Position numbers and translations under genes: made by a program. Positions 1 to 41,136 of a stretch of DNA of 41,136 nucleotides are shown one piece after another. The notes beneath the pieces were generated by a model. That model was not told where the DNA came from. It worked only from the letters and a program-made list of their open reading frames with translations, and did no database searches. This DNA comes from Fibrobacterota bacterium (GTDB lineage: Bacteria; Fibrobacterota; Fibrobacteria; UBA11236): contig JAQBPN010000090.1 of NCBI GenBank assembly GCA_028287505.1, positions 1 to 41,136 of the forward strand, read 5' to 3'. The first letter of the stretch is position 1. Every line of letters starts with the position of its first letter.

Positions 1-89
1 TCCAACCACTCTGGAAGAAATCCCGGGATCAGGCGGAGGCCAATCAGGCCCTCCCGCCATGTCGTATTCCGCGGAAAAGCAAGGTTCTT

Positions 90-1709
90 ATGATCAGCGC
101 AAACCAAGTCTCCCTGGCCCACGGCAAACGCGTCCTCTTCAAGGAAGTGGACATCAAGTTCACCCCCGGCAATTGTTACGGCATCATCGGCGCCAACGGC
201 GCCGGCAAATCCACCTTCCTCAAAATCCTCTCGGGCGAGATCGAGCCGGATTCCGGAAGCGTGCATATCGATCCGGGAATCCGCATGGGCGTGCTCAACC
301 AGAACCAGTTCGCCTTCGACGACTTCACCGTTTTGCAGACCGTCATCATGGGGCACAAGTTCCTGTACGATGTGATCCGGGAAAAGGACGCCATCTACGC
401 CAAGCCGGATTTCTCGGAAGCGGACGGCGTGCGGGCCTCGGAACTGGAAGGCGAGTTCGCCGATCTCAACGGGTGGAATGCCGAGTCCGAAGCGGCCACC
501 ATGCTCAGCGGCCTGGGCGTGCGGGAAGACAAGCATGCCCTGCTCATGAAGGAACTGACGGGCGGCGAGAAGGTGCGCGTGCTCCTGTGCCAGGCCCTTT
601 TCGGCAACCCGGGCATCCTGTTGCTCGATGAGCCCACGAACAATCTCGACATCGATTCCGTGGTCTGGCTGGAGGAGTTCCTCTATCAGTTCGAGAACAC
701 GGTGATCGTCGTGAGCCATGATCGCCATTTCCTGGACAAGGTCTGCACCCACGTGTGCGACATCGATTTCCAGAAAATCTCGACCTACACCGGCAATTAC
801 ACCTTCTGGTATGAATCCAGCCAATTGGCGCTGTCCCAGAAGCGCGATCAGAACAAGAAAAAAGAAGACAAGATCAAGGATCTGCAGACCTTCATCCAGC
901 GCTTCTCCGCCAACGCGTCGAAATCCAAGCAGGCCACTTCGCGGCGCAAGCTGATGGATAAGATCACCCTGGACGACATCCGGCCTTCCACCCGGCAGTA
1001 CCCGTTCATCGTTTTCAAGTCGGAGAAGGAAGCCGGCAAGATCATCCTCGAGATCGAGGGCCTTTCCAAATCCATCGAAGGCAAACCCCTGTTCCGCGGC
1101 TTCGAGCTGAACGTGCGCGCCGGGGACAAGATCGCCTTCGTGGGCCGGGACGATACCCCGGCCTCCACCCTGTTCAAGATCCTGATGGAAGAGATCAAGG
1201 CCGATCACGGCAACTTCCGCTGGGGCGGGTCCACCTCGCGCGCCTTTTTCCCCCGGGACAACGCGAAGTATTTCGAGACCGACATGAACCTGGTGGACTG
1301 GCTGCGCCAATATTCCAAAGAGAAGGAAAAGGACGATCAGTTCATCCGCGGCTGGCTGGGCAAGATGCTGTTCTCCGGCGAAGAGTCCCTGAAGAGCGCC
1401 AACGTGCTCTCGGGCGGCGAGAAAGTGCGCTGCATGCTGGCGCGCATGATGCTGTTGCAGGCCAACGTGCTGGTGCTGGACGAGCCCACCGGCCATCTGG
1501 ATCTGGAAGCCATCACCGCCCTCAACAACGGCCTCAAGGAATTCACGGGCACGGCCTTGTTCGCCTCGCAGGATCACCAGTTCGTCCAGACCATCGCCAA
1601 TCGCATCATCGAATTGACGCCCAAGGGCTTCATCGACAGGGCCATGACCTACGATGAGTACATGGCCAACGATGACGTGAAGAGGCTCCGCGAAAAGCTG
1701 TATGCCTGA
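90..1709 (+). CDS. ybiT: ABC-F family ATPase, YbiT/YkpA type
   Basis: This 539-residue protein has two ABC ATPase domains in one chain and no membrane segments, the layout of ABC-F proteins, which bind ribosomes and act in translation rather than transport. Domain 1 is intact: Walker A GANGAGKS (residues 34-41), signature LTGGE (156-160), Walker B with DE at 180-181 and switch His210. A charged linker (about 240-310) resembles the P-site tRNA interaction motif region. Domain 2 keeps signature LSGGE (440-444) and Walker B DE (464-465), but its Walker A reads GRDDTPAST (352-360) with no lysine, and the switch histidine is Gln (SQD, 493-495). One composite ATP site is therefore probably inactive. 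The C-terminal RIIELTPKGFIDRAMTYDEY stretch is typical of the YbiT/YkpA branch. The start is supported by AAGG at 81-84, five bases upstream. It appears monocistronic. Confidence 0.93.
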   Translation: MISANQVSLAHGKRVLFKEVDIKFTPGNCYGIIGANGAGKSTFLKILSGEIEPDSGSVHIDPGIRMGVLNQNQFAFDDFTVLQTVIMGHKFLYDVIREKDAIYAKPDFSEADGVRASELEGEFADLNGWNAESEAATMLSGLGVREDKHALLMKELTGGEKVRVLLCQALFGNPGILLLDEPTNNLDIDSVVWLEEFLYQFENTVIVVSHDRHFLDKVCTHVCDIDFQKISTYTGNYTFWYESSQLALSQKRDQNKKKEDKIKDLQTFIQRFSANASKSKQATSRRKLMDKITLDDIRPSTRQYPFIVFKSEKEAGKIILEIEGLSKSIEGKPLFRGFELNVRAGDKIAFVGRDDTPASTLFKILMEEIKADHGNFRWGGSTSRAFFPRDNAKYFETDMNLVDWLRQYSKEKEKDDQFIRGWLGKMLFSGEESLKSANVLSGGEKVRCMLARMMLLQANVLVLDEPTGHLDLEAITALNNGLKEFTGTALFASQDHQFVQTIANRIIELTPKGFIDRAMTYDEYMANDDVKRLREKLYA

Positions 1710-24609: not shown

Positions 24610-25193
24610 CAGCCTTTCTTGACCCGGAAGGTATCGAGATGGATTTTTATGGAAGCGCCTCTCCGTCCCGATATCGGGGCGACCACCGGCCCTTTTCCTG
24701 ATTTGGGCGTCGTCGCGGTCACTGGGGTTTCCTTGGCGTTCTGGGTAACCTCGAAGGATGTGAGGGCCATGACCCTGCGGCTGTTTTCCAACTTGGAGCA
24801 GAATTCCCCGAAGCTGAAGAAATCCCCTTCCAGTTCAATGTCATATCCATTGGTGGTGACCCTGCCCTGAGTGGTCGGAAGGCCGGGGCGCACGGAGACC
24901 AGTCGCATCTTCAAATCCGTGACGCAGGAGGTCAGGAAATCGAACAGGATGGACTCTTGGGATACCGTATCCTTTTGGCCGGCGAAATCCATATTGCGGT
25001 AGACGAGATCGCGCACGTGGTTCAGGTTTTCAGAAACGATCTTTGCCGTGGCAAGTTGATTGGACGTGACGATGCGCTGTTTTTCCAATTCCTTGAAGCG
25101 GGGAACGAATCGCGAAGTATACATGATATCGGCGGGAATCACGCATACGGCGACAACGGCCATGGCTGCCAGCAGGGATTCACTCGATTTCAT
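24609..25193 (-). CDS. pilO: PilO-like pilus assembly protein
   Basis: I start at the ATG at 25193 (MKSSESLLAAMAVVAVC...), which forms a four-base ATGA overlap with the pilN-like stop and has GGAAAG seven bases upstream; this gives 194 residues. The protein has one N-terminal transmembrane helix (about 5-23). A coiled-coil helix follows (FKELEKQRIVTSNQLATAKIVSENLNHV), then a ferredoxin-like domain with YDIELEGDFFSFGEFCSKLENSRRVMALTSFEV, the typical PilO/GspM pattern. PilO pairs with PilN in the inner-membrane alignment complex. The C-terminus carries a Thr/Pro/Lys-rich insertion before the last strand. Confidence 0.85.
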   Translation of the reverse strand: MKSSESLLAAMAVVAVCVIPADIMYTSRFVPRFKELEKQRIVTSNQLATAKIVSENLNHVRDLVYRNMDFAGQKDTVSQESILFDFLTSCVTDLKMRLVSVRPGLPTTQGRVTTNGYDIELEGDFFSFGEFCSKLENSRRVMALTSFEVTQNAKETPVTATTPKSGKGPVVAPISGRRGASIKIHLDTFRVKKG

Positions 25194-25783
25194 TGGGATA
25201 CTTTCCATTTCGAAGTGAACGCGGAGAAATCGAATGCGACGCGCGTCCCGTCTTCCTTGCGATCGGCCATATTCAGCTGAAGTTTGGTAAAGGTATTGGA
25301 AAACGTAGTATCGCTCCGGAGCCGATTGAGATATTGATCGAGAACCAACAATTGATCCTGCTGAGGGTTCGCATATCCGTATCCGGTCACCTTGAGGAGG
25401 TTGTTGTTGTATGTGAAGCCGGTAATCCAGTAGTTTTCAGGCAGATGCTTGGCCATTGACGCCAGCTTCTTGGTCCAGAGGCCCCCCTTGCCCTGAAGAT
25501 CGTTCAGAAGCTCGATGTCCGACTTGTCCACGATCAACCGTGCGGCCGTATATTTCTGGTACTCCTGTTGCAGCCTATGGACCTTGTCTTTCTCAATCGT
25601 CAGCACATGTTCCATTTGCGCGATGGTCAGGCCGGAATAGAGGAGGGAGAGGACGAAGAATCCGAAACAGCCGAGCCCCAGGATGACCGCGAGGCGTTGC
25701 TGGCGCTCAGATTTTACTTCCCGTTCGCGCAGATCGCGGATCAGATTAAGACGATAGAGGCTCAGGCCCGATTTGGCGATCAT
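25190..25783 (-). CDS. pilN: PilN-like pilus assembly protein
   Basis: The 197-residue protein has the PilN layout. A short cytoplasmic N-terminus contains LYRLNLIRDLRERE, like the PilM-binding INLLP-type motif. One transmembrane helix follows (about 31-54, LAVILGLGCFGFFVLSLLYSGL), then a coiled coil (MEHVLTIEKDKVHRLQQEYQKY) and a ferredoxin-like domain starting at WTKKLASMAKHLPENYWITGFTYNNNLLKVTGYG. It would bind PilM in the cytoplasm and PilO in the periplasm. The gene overlaps both neighbours by four bases (ATGA junctions), consistent with coupled translation of the complex. Confidence 0.9.
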   Translation of the reverse strand: MIAKSGLSLYRLNLIRDLREREVKSERQQRLAVILGLGCFGFFVLSLLYSGLTIAQMEHVLTIEKDKVHRLQQEYQKYTAARLIVDKSDIELLNDLQGKGGLWTKKLASMAKHLPENYWITGFTYNNNLLKVTGYGYANPQQDQLLVLDQYLNRLRSDTTFSNTFTKLQLNMADRKEDGTRVAFDFSAFTSKWKVSQ

Positions 25784-35611: not shown

Positions 35612-38600
35612 ATGCGCAAGTGGATTAAACGGGTTTTTGCCGCATTGGGGGTCTTCATCCTCCTGCTTTTCCTGGCTGTCTATTTCGGAGGCCGCTGGGC
35701 GGTCCAGCATTATCTCGCCAAGGATCTGGCCGTGGGCCAGGGCAAGGTGCGCCTGGTTTCCCCCCTGTTCCGCTGGAGCCTGGACCTGAGCGCGGACTCG
35801 GTGATTTACGCCAGTCCCACCCTGGACGTGGCCGCCGGCCGCACTCTGGTTTCCGCGAATCTGTTCAAGAGCCTGCTGCATTTCTCTCCTTCGGTCAGTT
35901 TGGATGTGGACACCCTGGCCCTGGCCGTCACGCCCGGCCCGGATACCGTCAAACCCAAACGGGATTCCCTGCCCTTTCCGGAATTCCGCATTCCCGCCGC
36001 GGTCCAGGTGCGGGCCGGCCGCATCCTGGTCTCCGATACCGCCGGCCGGTTGGTCCGCTGCGACGGCGTGGTATTGGAAACGCGAGGGCCCCAAGAGGTA
36101 ACGCTTTCCATCCGCGAGGCGGAAGCGCGGCAACTGGGCGCGCTCACGCAATCGCTGGCCGTATCCGCGGCGTGGGACGATTCCACCCGGGTGCTGGCCC
36201 GCCTGGCCTGGAAGTGCGCGGCCGACACGCTTTCCGTACTGGCCCGGCTGCCCAAGGCGAACATGCTGCGGGCCGCCGCGGAGTTGCGCGCCCATGTGGC
36301 CGCTTCCGCGCCCTATGCCAAAGCATTGAAATTGCCTCCCACCCTGCCCCGGGCGGAAGGGCTGGACGCGGAGTTCCGCGCCGACCTGGAGGGAGGCATC
36401 CGCCTGGACGGCGGTTTCCAGGCGCGCGTATCGGGATTTTCCGATTCGCTTCCCTTGAAGATGGGTCCGCAGAAGGTGGCCGTGCACGTGGGATTCAGGG
36501 ACACCGCCGGCGTCTGGTCGGTGACCAGCCGCGGGGATCGCGGCGAGGACGTGGATCTCAAAGGTACCTTGTTCGTTACCCGGAAGGATTCCCTCGCCAA
36601 TCCGGCCTGGCTGGCCGGCCATGCGGGGATCACCGCCCAGGGGCATCTGCGCGGCTTCACCGTGGTGGCGGCCGGCAAACGGGGAACGGCGGATCTGGAA
36701 GTTGCGGATCTGCGCGCTTCGGGCGAATCCGTGAAGGCGGACATCGCCACCGGGGACGGTTCCCGCATCCTGGCGGACCTGCGCATGGGGTCCTCGGCGC
36801 GCCCGGCCGCGAAGGGCGCCGGATCCGGCGCCTTGGCCAAGCGGAAGCCCAAGGGTAACAGGCAGGGTACCCAGCCCGCCTTGCCGGATTGGAACGGCGT
36901 TTTCTCCGCGCAAATCGCGCCGGGGGAAAGATGGATGGCGGCCTTTACGGATACCAACGTGGTTTTCCGGAAAGCCATGGTGACCGGCCGCATCGCCGGC
37001 GGGGAGGCGACGGCGGTGCTGGATGCCGCAGGCCTCAAGGCCTATGGAGTGATGGCCGACTCGTTGCACCTGGTCAACCGTTACGGCAAGGCCGGGTACG
37101 TCCTGGAGCCTTCCCGTCTGGTCTGGCGCGGTGTCGATTGGGATCTTTCCGGAAGCGTGGAATTGCGTAAGCCCGGCCGGCCGATGTCCCTCCGCCTGGG
37201 GAACCCGCGTTTCGGGTCCGTGGAAGCGGCCATGCCGCATCCGGATCTGATGGAAGCGCATATCCGGGATTTGGCCCTGGAGCAATTGCCCTATAAGGGA
37301 CTCGACACCCTCAAGGCGAATCAACCCCGGGTGACCGCCGATTTCCGGTGGGACAAGCGCCAGCGTACCGGCGTCGTCGACCTCAAGGTGGACGGGCGCT
37401 ACAAGAACCAGCCTCTCCAGGCCAGGGTGCGCGCGGAATGGGACGCCCAGACCCTGGTGGTGAAGGAAACCCGCGCCTCCCTGGCGGGCAATGAAATCAC
37501 CGCCTCGGCTACGGTACGCCTGCGCGGACGCCAATTCTATGAATTGGCCAAGGTGGAAAAATCGGATGTCGAGGAAGCGAGCGTGGGCGCGGATCGATTC
37601 GATCTGGCCAAGGCGCTGGCCGTGGCCCTTCCGCAGCCGCCCATCAAGTCGGGCGTTGCCATGGGAAGGCTGAGCTATCGCGCGGATGGGGGATTCGCGG
37701 GAACCTATAGGCTGGAGAACATCCATCTGAACTCGGAAGAGGAGAACTTCTCGATCAAGGAGCTGGCCATCACGGGCAAGGGGGACACCCTGTTGGTCCG
37801 CGCGATCACCGTTTCCGATCAGGAGGCCCTGTTCCGGGATTCGGTCACCGTGGCCGTGACGGGCGTACTGGCCAAGACACAGACCTTGAGCATGAAGGCC
37901 CGGGCCGGACAGGACATCTTCCTGGACTTCAACGGGACCGTCAAGGATTTCAAGGATCTGGAAGGGCGGCTGGGCGTGCGCGGGAACGTGGCGCTGCCGC
38001 AATCCTCCGGCGAGTTGCGCAATGTGCGCGTGCGCGCCGGCATCGGCATGCCTTTCCGGGACGGCCTCAAGGGGATGCGTCTGGAGGCGGACACCTTGGG
38101 GGGTGAGTATGTGGTGGCGGGCCTGGATACGCAGACTTTTTCCGCGCCGGTGAAGATGCTGAACGGCAAGATCACCATTCCCAACCTGACCGTCAAGGCA
38201 GGGCGCGGCGGGGAACTTCATGGCCGCATCGAGTTCGACCCCGCCTCCAAGCGCATGCTGGCGGACATTTCCGGAACCAGCCTGGCCGCGCAGCTGGGCG
38301 GGGACAAGGTGGTGTTGCGGGAACTGCGCGTGCAGGCGCAGTCGGATTCCACCCTGATGACCTTGCAGGTGGGGGTGGGGTCGGGCTCGGCCGAGCACAT
38401 CAAGTCGCCCATGCGCGCCACCGCGGATTTTTCGCGCCTGGCGGTTTTCTACCGCGCTCCCCTGGGCAAATCCCGGATCGATGTGGGAACGGGATCGCAG
38501 ATCCCGTTCTTGCGGGTGAGCGCGGTGCTGGACAGTTCCCTGCTGCGCTATCGCATGCGCAGCCTGGAGTCGCTCACCGGCATCTTCAAAAAAGAAGGCG

Positions 38601-39634
38601 GTAAACGCCGGTCCGCGGTGCGGCGCGTAAAGCCCGTCCAAGTGCAGATCAATCTGGAGACGGCCGGCCGGGGCAACAGCATCGAAACCGACGTGTTACG
38701 GGTATCCTACGTGGGAAACGTGGCCATGGTCGGCACCTATCCCTATTCGTTGATGCGCGGGCGGATCTCCTCGCACGAAGGCGGCCTGGGCCTCAAGAAA
38801 CAGGCCTATACCATCAAGCGCATGGAAGTGAAATGGCTGAACGCCCCGTTGGAGGAAGGTGAGTTGGAGTTGGATGCGGAAAAACGCCTGGCGCGCACGT
38901 GCGAGGTGGACGTCAAGGATTCCTGCTCCATCAAAATGACCTTGACCGGGCAGTTGAACGACGTCAAGTTCGCCTATGACAGCGATTGCCGCGGCGGTTA
39001 CGGAACCGGGAGCGCCGATGTCGCCGCCTTGATCTATTCCGTGCGCCGGGGCTGCTATTCCCCGGGATCCAGCAGCGGGGTGGGGGGAATGACCTATCAG
39101 GAGCAGGCTTTGGGTCTGCTGGAGCCGTTGGCCAGCAACTACCTGAGCCAAGCCGCGGAAAAGCTGTCCGGCAAGTGGATCGCCAGCGCGCAGGTGAGCG
39201 GCCTGGGGGCCTTGGCCCAGGACAGGCGGGCCGCGCAAGATACCGGTTTGTCGACCCGGGACGCCCTGGGGGTGGAAATCCTCAGCAAGGAGTTCTGGCG
39301 GCTCCGGCTCCGGGCCAAATCCGCCTATACCCTTCAGAAGGCCGATAACTTCAATCCCTGGACCTACCGGGTGGGAGTGGAGTGGCAGCCGCCGATTTTC
39401 CGCATGGTCGATGATCCCAAATGGAAGAACCGCATCAAGAACAAGATCACCCTGGACGCCTCCGTGTTCACCGATCCTTCCCGGGATCCCACCGGCCAGC
39501 AGGATCCCCTGCTGAAGAGACTGGGATTCAACTACAACTACGATTGGTGGGGCTACTGGTGGACCAGGCCCGCCCCCAATCCCGACACCCTGCAGGGCGT
39601 GCGCAAGGTTTCCCTAGGGGATTCCGCCCGATGA
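35612..39634 (+). CDS. tamB: TamB-like AsmA-superfamily envelope protein
   Basis: The 1340-residue protein has a single N-terminal transmembrane anchor (about 8-28, VFAALGVFILLLFLAVYFGG). A very long, beta-strand-rich body of repeating short strands follows, as in AsmA/TamB proteins that form a lipid-conducting groove across the periplasm. The C-terminal ~250 residues (YDSDCRGGYGTGSADVAALI..., LEPLASNYLSQAAEKLSG..., EFWRLRLRAKSAYTLQ, YRVGVEWQPPIFRM) resemble the TamB C-terminal domain that contacts an Omp85 partner. The pair CDS with BamA/TamA-like downstream, overlapping by four bases, strongly supports this. Its length is close to E. coli TamB (1259). The start has GGGAT five bases upstream. 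A Lys/Gly/Ala-rich low-complexity segment near residues 400-428 may be a flexible insert. Confidence 0.88.
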   Translation: MRKWIKRVFAALGVFILLLFLAVYFGGRWAVQHYLAKDLAVGQGKVRLVSPLFRWSLDLSADSVIYASPTLDVAAGRTLVSANLFKSLLHFSPSVSLDVDTLALAVTPGPDTVKPKRDSLPFPEFRIPAAVQVRAGRILVSDTAGRLVRCDGVVLETRGPQEVTLSIREAEARQLGALTQSLAVSAAWDDSTRVLARLAWKCAADTLSVLARLPKANMLRAAAELRAHVAASAPYAKALKLPPTLPRAEGLDAEFRADLEGGIRLDGGFQARVSGFSDSLPLKMGPQKVAVHVGFRDTAGVWSVTSRGDRGEDVDLKGTLFVTRKDSLANPAWLAGHAGITAQGHLRGFTVVAAGKRGTADLEVADLRASGESVKADIATGDGSRILADLRMGSSARPAAKGAGSGALAKRKPKGNRQGTQPALPDWNGVFSAQIAPGERWMAAFTDTNVVFRKAMVTGRIAGGEATAVLDAAGLKAYGVMADSLHLVNRYGKAGYVLEPSRLVWRGVDWDLSGSVELRKPGRPMSLRLGNPRFGSVEAAMPHPDLMEAHIRDLALEQLPYKGLDTLKANQPRVTADFRWDKRQRTGVVDLKVDGRYKNQPLQARVRAEWDAQTLVVKETRASLAGNEITASATVRLRGRQFYELAKVEKSDVEEASVGADRFDLAKALAVALPQPPIKSGVAMGRLSYRADGGFAGTYRLENIHLNSEEENFSIKELAITGKGDTLLVRAITVSDQEALFRDSVTVAVTGVLAKTQTLSMKARAGQDIFLDFNGTVKDFKDLEGRLGVRGNVALPQSSGELRNVRVRAGIGMPFRDGLKGMRLEADTLGGEYVVAGLDTQTFSAPVKMLNGKITIPNLTVKAGRGGELHGRIEFDPASKRMLADISGTSLAAQLGGDKVVLRELRVQAQSDSTLMTLQVGVGSGSAEHIKSPMRATADFSRLAVFYRAPLGKSRIDVGTGSQIPFLRVSAVLDSSLLRYRMRSLESLTGIFKKEGGKRRSAVRRVKPVQVQINLETAGRGNSIETDVLRVSYVGNVAMVGTYPYSLMRGRISSHEGGLGLKKQAYTIKRMEVKWLNAPLEEGELELDAEKRLARTCEVDVKDSCSIKMTLTGQLNDVKFAYDSDCRGGYGTGSADVAALIYSVRRGCYSPGSSSGVGGMTYQEQALGLLEPLASNYLSQAAEKLSGKWIASAQVSGLGALAQDRRAAQDTGLSTRDALGVEILSKEFWRLRLRAKSAYTLQKADNFNPWTYRVGVEWQPPIFRMVDDPKWKNRIKNKITLDASVFTDPSRDPTGQQDPLLKRLGFNYNYDWWGYWWTRPAPNPDTLQGVRKVSLGDSAR

Positions 39635-41004
39635 AACGTCTCCTCCTGATCCTGGCGCTCCTATTCTCCTCGGCCCGGTCCGACATCAACATCGTCGTGC
39701 AGGGCTATTCCGGACTCTCCAAACGGAAGCTTCTCGAGGTCATCTCTCCGGAACCCGAAGAGTACGACCAGGACGGTCTGCGATCCTGGCGCGAGGACGC
39801 GGAGTTCTACCTGGCGGATTCGTACCGCGCATCCGGCTACTTCGAGGTCCAGATCAAATCGGAACTGAAAAAACGCGGAGCGGATCCCAAGGACTGGGAC
39901 GCGACATTCACCATCAACGAAGGGCCGCGCTACATTTTCGATTCGGTGCGGGTGGTAGGGGCGGATTTGAATCAGCGCGAGTCCGCGGCCGCGGATAGCG
40001 GAAAGCAGACCAAGGGGGCCGCCGGAGCGCCCACCTTGCCGGTGACGGTCGATTCGGGAGCCGCCCTCCCCGATACCTCGGCCCGGCCGCCTCCGGGCCC
40101 CGCCGTCGATCCGGGGGATCTGGCGGCTCGGCCCGGCAAACCCTTCAGGGATGACGCCATGCTGGTGGATCGGCGCTTCCTGCTGCGCCGTTTCGGCAAT
40201 GCCGGCTTCGTGAGGGTGGAAGTGGACGACAAGGTGGACGTGCGGCCCAATACCAAAACCGTAGCGGTGGATTATCTGGTCGATCCGGGGCGGCCCGTCA
40301 TTTTCGACACGGTATTGATCCGTAACACGCGGGCTCCCCCCATGGATACCATGGCCGGCATCACCAAGGAGGGTATGTTGGCCTCCCTGGTCCGCTACGA
40401 TCGCGGCGATACGGTGCGCGCCTCCTCCAACGACAAGCTCGTGGAAAAGCTCCAGTACACGGGCGCCTTCAACTACGTGCGCATCAAGGACAGCCTGATG
40501 GCGGACAGCTCCGGCCGCAGCGCGCTTTTCCTCTATACGGAGGAGCATGTGCCGGGCAACCTGCGCGGCTCCATCTTCTATGAGACCCAATACGGGCCCG
40601 GCGTTTCCGTGGACGCGCGCCACAGCAACGTGGCGGGCAGTCTCAACGAATTGCGCACCGGATTCTCGATCGCCAAGGACCGCCAGACCTTGTACGGCGG
40701 ATACGGCTCCCCCCTCACCCTGGGGTATTTGATCCGGTTCGACGACGACATCACCTTCGATTGGTTCCAGGACAAACCCATCCACGACAGCCTGGGATTC
40801 TTCCGGGGCGATTTCCGCTGGGCCAATTCCTCCCGCCTCACCTGGCCTTGGTCCTATTGGCTGCGCTTGGTGGGCGATGCGGAGTTGGAGGCGACCAGCC
40901 GGATCATCACCTTGGACTCCTTGGAACGCGATCTCAGCCTCAACTTCATCCAAACGGCTTTCCTGACTTTCGTGAACCAGCCGATCCTGCGACATCGCGG
41001 CTGA
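39631..41004 (+). CDS. Omp85 (BamA/TamA) family protein, C-terminally truncated
   Basis: From the ATG at 39631 (ATGA overlap with tamB) the frame encodes 457 residues with a signal peptide (MKRLLLILALLFSSARS). POTRA-like domains follow (about 20-110, 175-270 and 270-355; for example FTINEGPRYIFDSVRVVG and DYLVDPGRPVIFDTVLIRNT), then the first strands of the Omp85 barrel (GNLRGSIFYETQYGPGVSVDARHSNVAGSL...). A low-complexity Ala/Pro/Gly-rich insert at about 112-168 interrupts the POTRA region. The barrel should need about 200 more residues, but the frame stops after FVNQPILRHRG. The sequence beyond is unrelated, so I treat the gene as broken by a contig misjoin or rearrangement near 40985-41004. 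With TamB it would form an outer-membrane assembly or lipid-transport unit. Confidence 0.85.
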   Translation: MKRLLLILALLFSSARSDINIVVQGYSGLSKRKLLEVISPEPEEYDQDGLRSWREDAEFYLADSYRASGYFEVQIKSELKKRGADPKDWDATFTINEGPRYIFDSVRVVGADLNQRESAAADSGKQTKGAAGAPTLPVTVDSGAALPDTSARPPPGPAVDPGDLAARPGKPFRDDAMLVDRRFLLRRFGNAGFVRVEVDDKVDVRPNTKTVAVDYLVDPGRPVIFDTVLIRNTRAPPMDTMAGITKEGMLASLVRYDRGDTVRASSNDKLVEKLQYTGAFNYVRIKDSLMADSSGRSALFLYTEEHVPGNLRGSIFYETQYGPGVSVDARHSNVAGSLNELRTGFSIAKDRQTLYGGYGSPLTLGYLIRFDDDITFDWFQDKPIHDSLGFFRGDFRWANSSRLTWPWSYWLRLVGDAELEATSRIITLDSLERDLSLNFIQTAFLTFVNQPILRHRG

Positions 41005-41136
41005 AGCGGACGACGAGCGATGTCGGCTGGAGCTCCTCGTCGAGGATCGGCAGCAACGTCGCGAGGTGGGGCAGCCACGCCGCGGTGTACAGCTTGAGCA
41101 CGTACGTGTCGGAGTAGCGGTCGAGGACGAGACCGG
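40985..41136 (-). CDS. Fragment of RlmI/RlmK-type class I SAM-dependent rRNA methyltransferase
   Basis: Reading the minus strand from 41134 gives an open frame GLVLDRYSDTYVLKLYTAAW, then LPHLATLLPILDEELQPTSLVVRFSRDV, before it runs into the Omp85 sequence. The GLVLDRYxDxYVxxL segment followed by a helix and a strand ending VVRFSR is the pattern just after the PUA domain in RlmI-type 23S rRNA cytosine methyltransferases. The fragment is open at the window edge (5' partial) and cut at its 3' end. Codon use (GTC, CTC, GAC, ACG) and composition differ from the preceding 41 kb and look actinobacterial-like. The exact left boundary is uncertain by some 15 bases. Confidence 0.6.

Follow-up and report, generated by a model that had tools for sequence, protein, structure and literature searches.

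Genes at the right end of the contig

The window, i.e. the whole stretch of DNA analysed here (41,136 bp, positions 1-41136), is the complete contig C57 of the draft genome G000 (6.07 Mb in 130 contigs, estimated to be 98.7% complete with 1.88% contamination), and position 41136 is the contig end. The last part of the window holds a TamB-like gene, a TamA-like Omp85 gene and a short antisense slice of a methyltransferase gene (Table 1). The TamB-like gene was recognised by its match to the Pfam family (E = 4e-5, 23.5 bits, cut-off 22.4).

Table 1. Coordinates of the features at the right end of the window.
Feature	Position	Strand	Remarks
TamB-like gene, 1340 aa, intact	35612..39634	+	Adjoins the TamA-like gene, upstream; Pfam PF04357 TamB
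TamA-like Omp85 gene (N-terminus, POTRA region, first barrel part)	39631..40985	+	Interrupted at 40985
C57/C10 overlap, last ~137 bases before the junction	40846..40985	+	95.6% identical to C10 (minus strand, ending 25030)
Chimeric junction, host tamA-like gene / actinobacterial DNA	40985..40986	.	No bases common at the join
Foreign tail, RlmI-like 23S rRNA methyltransferase slice, ~50 aa	40986..41136	-	151 bases; match to JAOBWQ010000351.1
Terminal 127-mer	41010..41136	-	JAOBWQ010000351.1 (RYN_42) ends in the identical 127-mer

The TamA-like gene is genuine host-genome sequence up to position 40985. The part in the window includes a POTRA match (E = 5.3e-9), and its product was 79% identical at the amino acid level to that of congener G004 over the compared part. 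Past 40985, the reading frame stays open for six foreign codons and is closed by a TGA at 41002-41004. The preliminary description of this DNA had the Omp85 frame breaking inside its barrel, and this was borne out at the DNA level, where homology to the congeners (G001-G005) and to host contig C10 ends at or just before 40985.

The window fragment gave distant matches to BamA and TamA profiles. Against the NCBIfam equivalog for TamA (NF047950), it scored 27.2 bits and a full-length congener 29.8 bits, neither reaching the curated cut-off of 625, and the cut-off of the NCBIfam BamA equivalog was missed too, also by the full-length congener. Because the gene falls below the NF047950 cut-off and has a TamB-like neighbour, we call it TamA-like rather than assigning it to TamA. 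The architecture of the Omp85 superfamily is present, with POTRA in the window part; both G004 and the part on C10 show the Omp85 barrel. Features held in common with TamA and the Omp85 superfamily (PF01103, PF07244) are the POTRA region, the TamB-like gene directly upstream and, in the congeners, an Omp85 barrel with a C-terminal Phe, whereas the barrel on C57 is limited to its first part. The host genome encodes a second, complete Omp85 protein of 623 aa with POTRA and Omp85 barrel (C117, about 19941-21809; L067 442-2310), for which the best NCBIfam match was BamA. As a separate complete gene, it was rejected as the continuation of the gene in C57.

The junction and the terminal 151 bases

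Homology switched source at a single base, from tamA-like sequence up to 40985 to actinobacterial identity from 40986. Microhomology was looked for at 40985/40986 and none was found; beyond the join, the true continuation of the gene starts with GGATCC and the foreign piece with CCTGCG, and the bases preceding the join differ too.

At the DNA level, the tail was identical at 150 of 151 positions to the last 151 bases of JAOBWQ010000351.1, a contig of metagenome bin RYN_42 (Ilumatobacteraceae, actinobacterial), with the terminal base common to both contigs and the match collapsing at 40985. The minus strand (41134-40985) encodes 50 aa that correspond to about positions 112-165 of the NCBIfam model NF033380 (E = 2.2e-14), in agreement with the antisense RlmI-type fragment of the preliminary description; its length, put there at ~140 bases, is 151 when measured on DNA. 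A translated search, which had been proposed as a check, placed the tail in the actinobacterial metagenome contig: the 50 aa were 100% identical to the end of JAOBWQ010000351.1, and the next-best protein matches were from RYN_39 (Acidimicrobiales, 94%) and another actinobacterial bin (84%). A search of solved structures with the 50-aa tail gave no match, and a literature search returned no publication on the RYN bins. The different codon use ascribed to the tail was only weakly visible: its G+C content was 67.5%, against 62.4% for the tamA part and 61.6% for the whole window.

In three actinobacterial loci (L032, L033 and L034), the methyltransferase frame reads without interruption across the point of the junction, and the actinobacterial contigs are therefore the native context of this gene. 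The idea that both genes are incomplete at one point holds at the junction, where the methyltransferase is cut at 40986, but the methyltransferase is also cut by the contig end at 41136. The source gene has a PUA-like N-terminal domain and a SAM-dependent methyltransferase domain in L033, and the SAM domain in L032; the 50-aa tail itself contains neither. Compared with RlmI-like 23S rRNA (cytosine-C5) methyltransferases (NF033380, NF053718, PRK15128), the tail thus resembles one segment of NF033380, but differs in being a slice without the SAM-binding domain and from another organism. No second copy of the tail was detected in the host genome (best other match E = 0.23). A paralogous or relocated host methyltransferase was rejected as its source, since there is no such copy and the host encodes its methyltransferases of this family on C45 and C113.

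We also compared the contig ends. Counted from the end, C57 and JAOBWQ010000351.1 share 127 exact bases, differ at one base (41009), match over a further 23 bases and then cease to match. The exact run is as long as the overlap at the left end of C57, where window bases 1-127 (plus strand) are identical to the final 127 bases of host contig C103 (59729-59855; C103 is 59855 long). A de Bruijn assembler run with k = 127 outputs contigs that overlap at their ends by exactly k. That C57 overlaps other contigs by exactly 127 bases at either end therefore points to an assembly graph with k = 127, and the overlap with the actinobacterial contig indicates that C57 and JAOBWQ010000351.1 came from one such graph, in which their terminal 127-mer is probably a single vertex. 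Judging from this overlap, the two contigs were probably produced in one assembly run. C57 has the same base at 41009 as the sister contigs L033 and L034, which suggests strain variation in the actinobacterium; such variation would account for a fork of the graph at this base. At the other end of the window, C103 may come before C57 in the genome, or the 127 bases may be a repeat common to both.

Probable continuation of the TamA-like gene on C10

The preliminary description had suggested looking for the missing half of the barrel on another contig, and it probably lies on C10 of the same genome, at the end of which an open Omp85 frame reaches a stop codon. The overlap between C57 and C10 (Table 1) includes an identical run of ~55 bases, and it is likely a true overlap through which the gene continues. 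When C57 and C10 were joined inside the overlap, an uninterrupted frame of 657 aa resulted, with a C-terminus (...FWLDLAQAF) like that of the intact congeners. Moreover, placed in this order, C57 and C10 are collinear with a single G004 contig (C17, 50662-110993), and identity to G004 was 78.8% for the window before the overlap and 78.4% for C10 after the junction point.

The outer ~585 bases of C10 (about 25170-25754, minus strand, at the end of L011) were 65.4% identical to the window, and 78.6% identical to congener G005 versus 63.7% to G004. We infer that this segment originated in a related strain or species and reached C10 through either chimeric assembly or real allelic mosaicism. Since the overlap is 95.6% rather than 100% identical and the end of C10 has diverged, continuation of the TamA-like gene on C10 is probable, not proved. 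Alternatively, C10 as a whole may be the corresponding locus of a related strain or species that was binned together with the host, in which case the bin would lack the true 3' half of the gene in C57. Such an origin would fit the G005-like first ~585 bases and the estimated bin contamination of 1.88%. However, from ~40846 C10 matches the window at the level given above and then becomes G004-like to the degree expected for the species, and within the 98.7% complete genome neither the 3' gene part on C10 nor the orthologous YihY-like gene that follows it occurs a second time. We consider this alternative unlikely, and retain the continuation of the gene on C10 as the probable one.

Contig C130, which has a YihY-like gene 76% identical to that of C10, was rejected as the lost neighbourhood of C57; its gene has different surroundings, with no tamA-like gene among them, and this paralog has a separate G004 counterpart on C34. 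With the end of C10, a second contig end within this TamA-like gene is either chimeric or an allelic mosaic.

Interpretation of the contig end

The right end of C57 is best explained as a chimeric contig end, i.e. an artefact of library preparation or short-read metagenome assembly (probability approximately 0.97). The misjoin put forward in the preliminary description is supported by the source of the tail, the continuation on C10, the gene order in the congeners and the 127-base overlaps. Both source loci are continuous elsewhere, the methyltransferase in L032, L033 and L034 and the TamA-like gene probably on C10 as well as in four of the five congeners (G001-G004), where it is intact; in G005 it is cut by a contig end. 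The same gene order in a related genome had been named as evidence against a misjoin, and the C57 junction is missing from the congeners.

Bases 40986-41136 derive from the methyltransferase gene of the Ilumatobacteraceae bin RYN_42 or of a sister strain, and this actinobacterium was most likely present in the same metagenome as the host. In a k = 127 graph, the path of C57 would cross one chimeric join into 23 actinobacterial bases, pass to the polymorphic base 41009 and end at the 127-mer shared with the actinobacterial contig. The join may have started as a chimeric read or fragment (from ligation or PCR in the library) that was carried into the graph. The join has no common bases, which favours a chimeric fragment or read over the collapse of a repeat. 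We accordingly lean towards a chimeric molecule formed during library preparation, with the assembler following real reads, over an error of the assembler or scaffolder; collapse in the graph would need a shared k-mer, and the junction lacks even microhomology, although the low-k rounds of a multi-k assembler together with a bridging third sequence could give the same join. In the organism, the host TamA-like gene very probably remains whole and continues on C10.

A real rearrangement or horizontal transfer would mean that actinobacterial DNA was inserted in the organism and disrupted the TamA-like gene. The evidence for such an insertion is the contig itself and nothing beyond it; because C57 stops 151 bases past the junction, an insertion keeps a small probability. 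Against it, the tail is nearly identical to a contig from an actinobacterial bin and ends on the same base, the terminal 127-mer in common matches the left-end overlap of C57 in length, the gene probably continues on C10 without an insertion, and the congeners carry intact copies, that of G005 being cut by the contig end only. We regard an insertion as very improbable, and a recent one in part of the population, alongside intact TamA-like copies, as slightly less probable still.

Chimeric contigs are described as a known problem in metagenome-derived genomes, and a frequency of at least 0.5% of cyanobacterial assemblies is cited in the same source (PMC10978663). The chimeric contigs discussed there resemble C57 in that DNA of two unrelated organisms is present in one contig, with the join in C57 located at its extreme end; relative to that account, nothing essential differs, and for C57 the partner contig and the shared 127-mer were identified. 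The consequences concern quality control only: C57 should be cut at 40985, removing the last 151 bases, and annotating its TamA-like gene as truncated should be avoided. Contigs binned in different phyla but ending in the same k-mer are a simple fingerprint by which further chimeric ends can be found.

The TamA-like locus seems to break assemblies, perhaps through strain variation in the barrel. In congener G005, too, a contig stops inside the barrel of the same gene (L015, G005:C81, contig end 118812).
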